Origin: Halorhabdus sp. BNX81
GTDB lineage: Archaea > Halobacteriota > Halobacteria > Halobacteriales > Haloarculaceae
Direction: 5' to 3'
DNA: 64,000 nucleotides
Assembly (NCBI RefSeq): GCF_029229925.1
Contig: NZ_CP107254.1
Location: forward strand, 1,736,001-1,800,000
Positions within the stretch are counted from its first letter, which is position 1, and each line of letters begins with the position of its first letter. Positions 3,572-3,803 of the stretch are shown here, one piece after another. The notes beneath the pieces were generated by a model. That model was not told the origin of the DNA, ran no database searches, and saw only the letters and a program-made list of their open reading frames with translations. Both the position numbers and the translations under genes were made by a program.

Positions 3572-3587
3572 TGCTCGCGATAGAAGT

Positions 3588-3611
3588 TTGTGGGGCCGGA
3601 TTTGAACTGGA
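3588..3611 (-). repeat. Extra copy of tRNA-Leu T-arm and acceptor 3' strand
   Basis: Read on the minus strand this is a degenerate copy of the last 24 nt of the tRNA-Leu gene at 3720-3803, displaced 132 bp downstream; the core GTTCAAATCCGG is identical. The next 16 bases downstream are identical after both copies (plus-strand 3572-3587 and 3704-3719), so the duplication includes the start of the trailer. A sequence complementary to the T-arm (GGATTTGAATCC on the minus strand, plus 3664-3675) lies between the two copies. No integrase gene is present, so an attachment-site origin is possible but unsupported. Confidence 0.75.
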
Positions 3612-3689
3612 TGAAGACATTCCAGGGTGCGGCGCAATGCGCCGTCCCGGGCTCTGACTTCCAGGATTCAAATCCTCAGCAGCACAGCA

Positions 3690-3713
3690 ATCGCTCGCGG
3701 TTTTGCTCGCGAT
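3690..3713 (-). other. tRNA-Leu trailer hairpin with 14-nt loop
   Basis: On the minus strand, six bases after the tRNA-Leu 3' end, ATCGC and GCGAT form a 5-bp stem around the 14-nt loop GAGCAAAACCGCGA. Loops of the same length and similar sequence, on unrelated stems, occur after tRNA-Trp (52392-52415) and after the second tRNA-Met tail copy (47689-47716). The loop begins and ends with GA, allowing tandem sheared G-A pairs as in a kink-loop. The stem alone is short; comparison between loci is what makes it credible. Confidence 0.6.
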
Positions 3714-3719
3714 AGAAGT

Positions 3720-3803
3720 GCGTGGGACCGGATTTGAACCGGCGGACCCCTACGGGACAGCGCCCTCAACGCTGCGCCGTTGGCCTGGCTTGGCTACCCA
3801 CGC
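3720..3803 (-). tRNA. tRNA-Leu (anticodon GAG)
   Basis: Read on the minus strand, a 7-bp acceptor stem GCGTGGG/CCCACGC encloses a D-arm, an anticodon stem CAGCG/CGCTG with loop TTGAGGG (anticodon GAG), a long variable arm and the T-arm CCGGTTCAAATCCGG. The long variable arm and 84-nt length fit a class II tRNA-Leu. The CCA end is not encoded. No intron is seen. A structured trailer and a partial copy of its 3' end follow downstream. Confidence 0.93.

Follow-up and report, generated by a model that had tools for sequence, protein, structure and literature searches.

The window analysed here is a stretch of 64,000 nucleotides from Halorhabdus sp. BNX81 (contig NZ_CP107254.1, positions 1,736,001 to 1,800,000). 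Close to its beginning the minus strand carries a tRNA-Leu(GAG) gene followed by a 132-bp unit (3586-3717), which is composed of a trailer hairpin, an antisense T-arm, an inner hairpin and a copy of the tRNA tail. Units are also found on the plus strand behind tRNA-Met(CAT) and tRNA-Trp(CCA). The features are the following:

3718-3803, minus strand: tRNA-Leu(GAG) (ARAGORN and covariance match); its last 22 nt, from the T-loop to the 3' end, are the tail that is copied
3690-3713, minus strand: trailer hairpin ATCGCGAGCAAAACCGCGAGCGAT, first module of the Leu(GAG) unit (sequence and fold)
3667-3675, minus strand: antisense T-arm GGATTTGAA, the left arm, a complement of the T-arm portion of the tail copy (sequence, tail scan and fold)
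3608-3666, minus strand: exchangeable interior hairpin of the AGTC...GTCT type (match to model R1 and alignment)
3586-3607, minus strand: tail copy GTTCAAATCCGGCCCCACAAAC, 19/22 (tail scan against shuffles)
3572-3585, minus strand: start of the second trailer copy, TTCTATCGCGAGCA (sequence)
47483-47558, plus strand: tRNA-Met(CAT), the second example in the window (ARAGORN)
47559-47686, plus strand: Met unit 1, with trailer, antisense arm (47621-47632), interior and tail copy (47665-47686, 20/21)
47687-47793, plus strand: Met unit 2, with trailer, antisense arm (47725-47736), interior and tail copy (47772-47793, 21/21)
52209-52384, plus strand: tRNA-Trp(CCA) with an intron (Rfam RF00005, 45.9 bits; ARAGORN with introns)
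52385-52489, plus strand: degenerate Trp unit, with trailer, antisense arm (52428-52441) and tail copy (52468-52489) (sequence)

The tail of tRNA-Leu(GAG), GTTCAAATCCGGTCCCACGCAC, recurs at 3586-3607 with 19 of its 22 bases, the maximum in 50 dinucleotide shuffles of the same 400 bp being 14. An earlier note on this DNA had reported a tail repeat 132 bp downstream of the gene; the repeat is real, and its place is 3586-3607 and not 3588-3611. The complement of the T-arm that had been noticed between the gene and the copy was also recovered: the 12-mer given for it, GGATTTGAATCC, occupies 3664-3675, and GGATTTGAA at 3667-3675 is the exact complement of TTCAAATCC. Similarly, the trailer 16-mer said to be common to both, ACTTCTATCGCGAGCA, comes directly after tRNA-Leu(GAG) as well as directly after its tail copy, and the same order of modules described for tRNA-Met is seen there in two complete tandem units. 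The worn Trp unit, absent from the earlier note, has an antisense arm scoring 10/12 against a shuffle maximum of 9. At the Leu(GAG) locus, congener G006 has kept the trailer and GAGGATT and is divergent beyond, and congener G003 is without a unit. Elsewhere in the window (6810-7201) two near-identical 64-aa cold-shock-like proteins are encoded in tandem.

The earlier note had proposed to scan every tRNA gene of the genome (2.83 Mb in a single contig) for its own tail. For 42 tRNAs, the 400 bp downstream were searched for the best match to the tail, and this was set against 50 dinucleotide shuffles, the upstream side serving as the control. The downstream copy exceeded all 50 shuffles at 27 of the 42 tRNAs (upstream control, 1/42), most of the 27 having at least 19 matches of approximately 21. 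At 18 tRNAs the antisense arm between the tRNA and the copy also exceeded every shuffle, a strict test because the arm is short. The layout is thus not restricted to the window: most tRNA genes of this genome have it, and it occurs in almost all the haloarchaeal genomes sampled. The units are approximately 100-170 bp long, stand in tandem behind tRNA genes and are filled over most of their length by hairpins. Some tail copies are split by GC-rich hairpins, and many more hairpins are inserted inside tail copies. A different layout was seen behind Ala-CGC and Arg tRNAs (L010 and L038 in this genome, L228 in genome G025), where additional hairpins precede a repeat of the tail's acceptor part; in L228 an antisense acceptor piece comes before this repeat.

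Alignment of 20 inner hairpins revealed two nearly invariant motifs, AGTC[G/A]CAGC and GTCT. The pairs just outside these motifs have changed on both sides with the pairing kept in 9 of the 20 sequences each. The covariance model R1 was built from these 20 copies. Since the Leu(GAG) copy is one of them, its own score (3595-3678, 67.4 bits, E 4.5e-15 in a whole-genome search) is not independent evidence, unlike the matches in other genomes. In the window's genome R1 found 36 matches at E up to 1, and all those with E < 0.05 lie behind tRNAs; an apparent exception at 504658 is behind tRNA-Pro(CGG), which the tRNA list had missed. Rfam scans returned tRNA matches only for six unit-bearing loci (E up to 0.1) and no match for six plasmid loci (E up to 1).

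Among 39 relatives, 34 have R1 matches, with a maximum of 37 in one genome. Of 392 genomes sampled from the phylum, 78 of the 81 Halobacteriales were positive and none of approximately 310 other Halobacteriota, the carriers including Haloarcula, Halorubrum, Natronomonas, Halorientalis, Halobacterium and Natribaculum. Of 92 R1 matches whose loci were fetched, 83 have a same-strand tRNA within 340 bp upstream; four of the others are at contig ends and five are without a called tRNA, mostly with a tRNA tail or tail remnant upstream. A viral origin was also considered and rejected: 14 IMG/VR contigs with the pattern look like chance matches in protein-coding sequence with no unit or tRNA, and phage records gave no match to the unit pattern.

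Whole units come and go between related genomes. At orthologous tRNAs of the window's genome and the congeners G006 and G003, the 70-bp stretches behind the tRNA and behind each of its tail copies were set against one another. In 21 cases among these three congeners the match is displaced by one or more slots, a sequence located behind the tRNA in one genome standing behind a tail copy in another, with similarities over 70 bp of 1.00 (Pro-TGG), 0.97 (Asn, Arg-CCG, Thr-GGT, Leu-TAG), 0.94 (Ser-TGA), 0.93 (Gly-GCC) and 0.90 (Arg-GCG). The units are present or absent as wholes, with the tail as the exact boundary, and most of the 21 shifts involve the tRNA-proximal slot (slot 0). The first unit behind Arg-CCG is absent in both congeners and so, on the simplest reading, was gained by the window's genome. 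The three genomes differ at Lys-TTT: unit a is present in one, unit b in a second, and in the third b is followed by a. First tail copies match the tRNA better than second ones in 16 arrays, with the reverse in 6, and many orthologous tRNAs have no unit at all. In locus L294 four identical units stand in tandem behind tRNA-Lys(TTT) from about 1005, and a fifth has another interior and an Arg-like tail fragment.

The interiors are exchanged independently of the remaining modules. A comparison of 242 distinct units at 36 tRNA types gave 462 pairs at different tRNAs with the same interior and different trailers, and 30 pairs at the same tRNA with the same trailer and different interiors; for 31 of the 36 types an interior is common to another type. 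In G006 the two tandem Ser-TGA units have identical trailers, arms and tails and unrelated interiors, and the Ala-GGC units of two haloarchaea (L114, L165) have trailers 0.95 alike around differing interiors. One interior, TCAGGGAG...GACCGTGG, occurs with 86-94% identity at more than 10 tRNA types in several families, and each time the arms around it fit the local tRNA. Over the units, left arms fit the T-stem of their own tRNA at 4.49 of 5 positions compared with 3.59 for other tRNAs. The arms could have been re-made at each insertion; this is less likely than exchange of interiors, because trailers and arms stay with the tRNA and interiors change. Exchange has its boundary in the universal inverted repeat of the T-loop (TTGAA...TTC), which leaves the arms tRNA-specific.

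Counted on the tRNA strand, 114 interiors are in direct and one in inverted orientation relative to the tRNA. The inverted one (L298, 111-187, behind tRNA-Leu(TAA)) is approximately 110 bp away from the end of a contig and could reflect misassembly. With the orientation fixed, whatever handles the unit does not treat its two strands alike. Conserved unpaired positions are found in the interior. Core-stem mismatches in 127 distinct copies comprise six G-T, at about 1% of pairs, and seven A-C, with no preference for compensatory changes through G-U on the transcribed strand; positions 1-8 of the arms have nine G-T and six A-C in the 127 distinct cores. In predicted folds of tRNAs from the same four genomes G-U amounts to approximately 8%, a rough control because folding programs favour G-U. 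Selection for an RNA of the other strand, hinted at in 92 copies by one covarying pair (A/C 3, G/T 0), was dropped when the counts became symmetric at 127 copies. Tail copies are conserved at 0.926 in the acceptor half, which is unpaired in the unit, and at 0.933 in the paired T-arm half. The lack of a G-U preference in the pairing together with the equal conservation of the acceptor half looks like copying or recognition at the DNA level, and makes an RNA function less likely.

Archaeal integrases prefer the 3' ends of tRNA genes (PMC8371274). Behind tRNA-Val(GAC) there is no unit directly, as a 9.3-kb island lies between the gene and its units (locus L150, G000:C1:2619900-2631900). The island ends in a 22-bp core, GTTCAAATCCGCCCCAACCCAC, with the same boundaries as the tail copies of the units, from the T-loop to the 3' end. 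Beside its right end lies a gene for a tyrosine integrase (PF00589, PF13495), and the other island proteins include two ParB-like proteins, an N6/N4 DNA methylase and a 557-aa protein without a Pfam match. By eye, no obvious antisense T-arm was seen next to the island att site. The earlier note had allowed for copies flanking mobile elements; this applies to one tRNA of the genome, Val(GAC), and there the units sit downstream of the island. L059 and L140 have a similar appearance, in that a tail remnant immediately precedes the unit.

Only two PF00589 genes were found in the genome, that of the island integrase and, at approximately 1.455 Mb, one for a XerA/XerC-like enzyme that scores 111 bits to NF040815 (cut-off 220) and is a candidate recombinase for the units. 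In the 3.4-kb locus L403, which has no tRNA, the XerA/XerC-like gene (889-1950, plus strand) is directly downstream of a DUF5805 gene. As for other enzymes, the Y1 transposase PF01797 is absent from the window's genome, the same search being positive in 5 of 14 control genomes including Haloferax volcanii. With the integron integrase TIGR02249 one of the PF00589 proteins gave 20.5 bits (cut-off 265), and the other was without a listed match.

These sequence comparisons point to a lineage-wide recombination process at tRNA genes. On balance we favour the view that the units are a haloarchaea-wide family of modular non-coding DNA cassettes recombining at the tRNA tail, from the T-loop to the 3' end, and they are best seen as recombining selfish or satellite DNA. 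The frame of each cassette, i.e. trailer hairpin, antisense T-arm and full tail copy, belongs to its tRNA, and the interior is exchangeable. Both the gain and loss of units and the exchange of interiors would be recombination at one kind of site, the T-arm and tail, by a tyrosine recombinase acting in trans, the candidates being the integrases of tRNA-targeting elements or the resident XerA-like enzyme. The substrate may be a folded single strand on which antisense arm and tail copy rebuild a duplex T-arm site, which would account for the need of a match between antisense arm and local tail. The use of the same 22-bp core by the integrase-bearing island counts for a recombinase. Against it count the finding of only two PF00589 genes and no PF01797, and the lack of an obvious antisense T-arm beside the island att site, and no unit was seen in circular or excised form; moreover, interiors move between tRNAs whose tails differ, for which a plain att x att reaction does not account. 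Its weak point is orientation: recombination at inverted arms should invert interiors too, and only 1 of 115 is inverted. A simple recombinase at inverted sites would randomise orientation unless one orientation is selected.

The main rival to a recombinase is replication template switching with gene conversion, which we hold to be possible though rather unlikely. No dedicated recombinase would be needed, and the units would be quasi-palindromic repeats that spread and change through template switching at hairpins, deletion and duplication between short repeats, and gene conversion in polyploid cells. The T-loop GGTTCAA would provide the microhomology, and fold-back copying would keep the antisense arm complementary, by which the near-perfect arms and the strand-symmetric wobble are easily explained without an enzyme. 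The four identical units behind tRNA-Lys in L294, the many further hairpins inside tail copies and the absence of a candidate transposase from the genome fit this account as well, and deletions at repeats of 10-22 bp in Haloquadratum provide a precedent (PMC3119063). It explains less well why gains are concentrated at the tRNA-proximal slot and why tail copies end exactly where the att site of the integrase island does, and the 114:1 orientation and the conserved unpaired positions of the interior suggest recognition.

More doubtful is an integron-like arrangement, where most tRNA genes would be capture platforms and a recombinase would bind the folded strand with its rebuilt T-arm duplex, insert non-coding cassettes at the tRNA tail and swap interiors between loci. 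The orientation bias of 114:1 is compatible with recombination of one folded strand. The attC sites of integrons fold into imperfect hairpins, in which unpaired positions are conserved and the terminal part varies, and one orientation is preferred (PMC2727003). The tRNA units share the imperfect hairpin, the unpaired conserved positions, the variable terminal part and the preferred orientation, and as in integrons an array of units lies beside one fixed site and grows next to it. The T-arm AYTTGAAC...GTTCRART presumably differs from the attC boxes by one base pair. Integron cassettes usually carry a promoterless gene, and no open reading frame was noticed in the units. Unlike in integrons, no integron integrase was found in the genome, the platforms are many different tRNA genes, the boundary repeat is the tRNA tail and differs by tRNA, and what is exchanged is the interior.

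It is improbable that the units act within the primary transcript of the tRNA, as a functional RNA or as a processing element such as a terminator, a trailer-processing signal or an antisense T-arm control of maturation. Such a role would account for the fixed strand and position behind tRNAs, the covariation in the conserved inner hairpin and the T-rich beginning of most trailers. In archaeal termination, however, a T-rich stretch directly after the tRNA would stop transcription before the unit is reached. The core stems have G-U no more commonly than A-C, at about 1% of pairs compared with the approximately 8% G-U of tRNA folds, the unpaired acceptor half is conserved to the same degree as the T-arm half (0.926 compared with 0.933), many orthologous tRNAs lack a unit, and no Rfam family matches. 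It is very improbable that the units are host decoys, spare attachment sites diverting tRNA-targeting integrases from the tRNA gene. The copies do match the att core used by the Val(GAC) island, but the tRNA itself was the entry point of that island, whose insertion displaced the units downstream, L059 and L140 being similar, and a decoy needs neither an antisense arm nor a swappable interior. Chance or ordinary tandem duplication at a few tRNAs is practically out of the question, being already refuted by the genome-wide tail scan and also by the model matches, the distribution, the slot shifts and the sharing of interiors. The earlier note had argued from the shared layout for a mechanism and not chance, and its occurrence at most tRNAs, the covarying stems and the gain and loss of whole units bear this out.

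The units can also be compared with other elements. Integrative elements at tRNA 3' ends and their decayed remnants (ICE, IME, CIME) similarly duplicate the tail and so restore the tRNA gene, accrete in tandem and, as in the 9.3-kb island, use the same att core, and their insert is flanked by a direct repeat of the tRNA 3' end, as in the many unit copies with 20-22 matches. The units differ in being approximately 100-170 bp, non-coding and present at most tRNAs, with a tRNA-matched antisense arm and shared interiors; they are too short for an integrase gene, and an integrase is found only in the separate 9.3-kb island. Defining features of both integrons and tRNA accretion proved absent when tested, so the units are not filed under either. 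With REP/BIME elements and their RAYT, and with the haloarchaeal PATE or MITE, they share short imperfect palindromes, many copies per genome and the lack of genes. In contrast to these, they are confined to tRNA 3' flanks with arms that fit the local tRNA; they are not dispersed over intergenic regions (R1 matches with E < 0.05 in their own genome) and, in contrast to REP/RAYT, no Y1 transposase is present.

No description of such tRNA-tail cassettes was found in the open-access literature searched, and an older account in a subscription journal is possible. While tRNA genes are classic entry points of mobile DNA, this repeat family, tied to the majority of tRNA genes in almost an entire archaeal class, appears to be undescribed in the papers searched. 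The units are a natural record of recombination at the T-arm and tail. They make testable which enzyme or replication process is acting, why integrases prefer tRNA tails and how hairpins swap their interiors and yet keep tRNA-specific arms. In genome annotation, the tail copies can mimic attR sites and give false ends of genomic islands.

Six haloarchaeal plasmids also matched. One of them, a Natrinema thermotolerans megaplasmid (L098, 2950-3100), has a complete unit preceded by a tRNA-like tail, at a place with no tRNA call by ARAGORN. In others the bare core sits inside a different element. A separate structured intergenic element of approximately 126 bp (GGACTCAGAAAGGGCGAGGCC...GCCGAGGGCTTTC) matches 122 haloarchaeal plasmid records (loci L096, L097, L100 and L101, and L400-L402 around 2501-2626), with no Rfam match among the plasmid copies scanned. 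In the three records opened, a plasmid gene for a prf1-like release factor lies approximately 200 bp downstream of the element, which also adjoins an opposite-strand gene for a DNA-binding or hypothetical protein. Some plasmids have an insertion of the AGTC hairpin core in this element.
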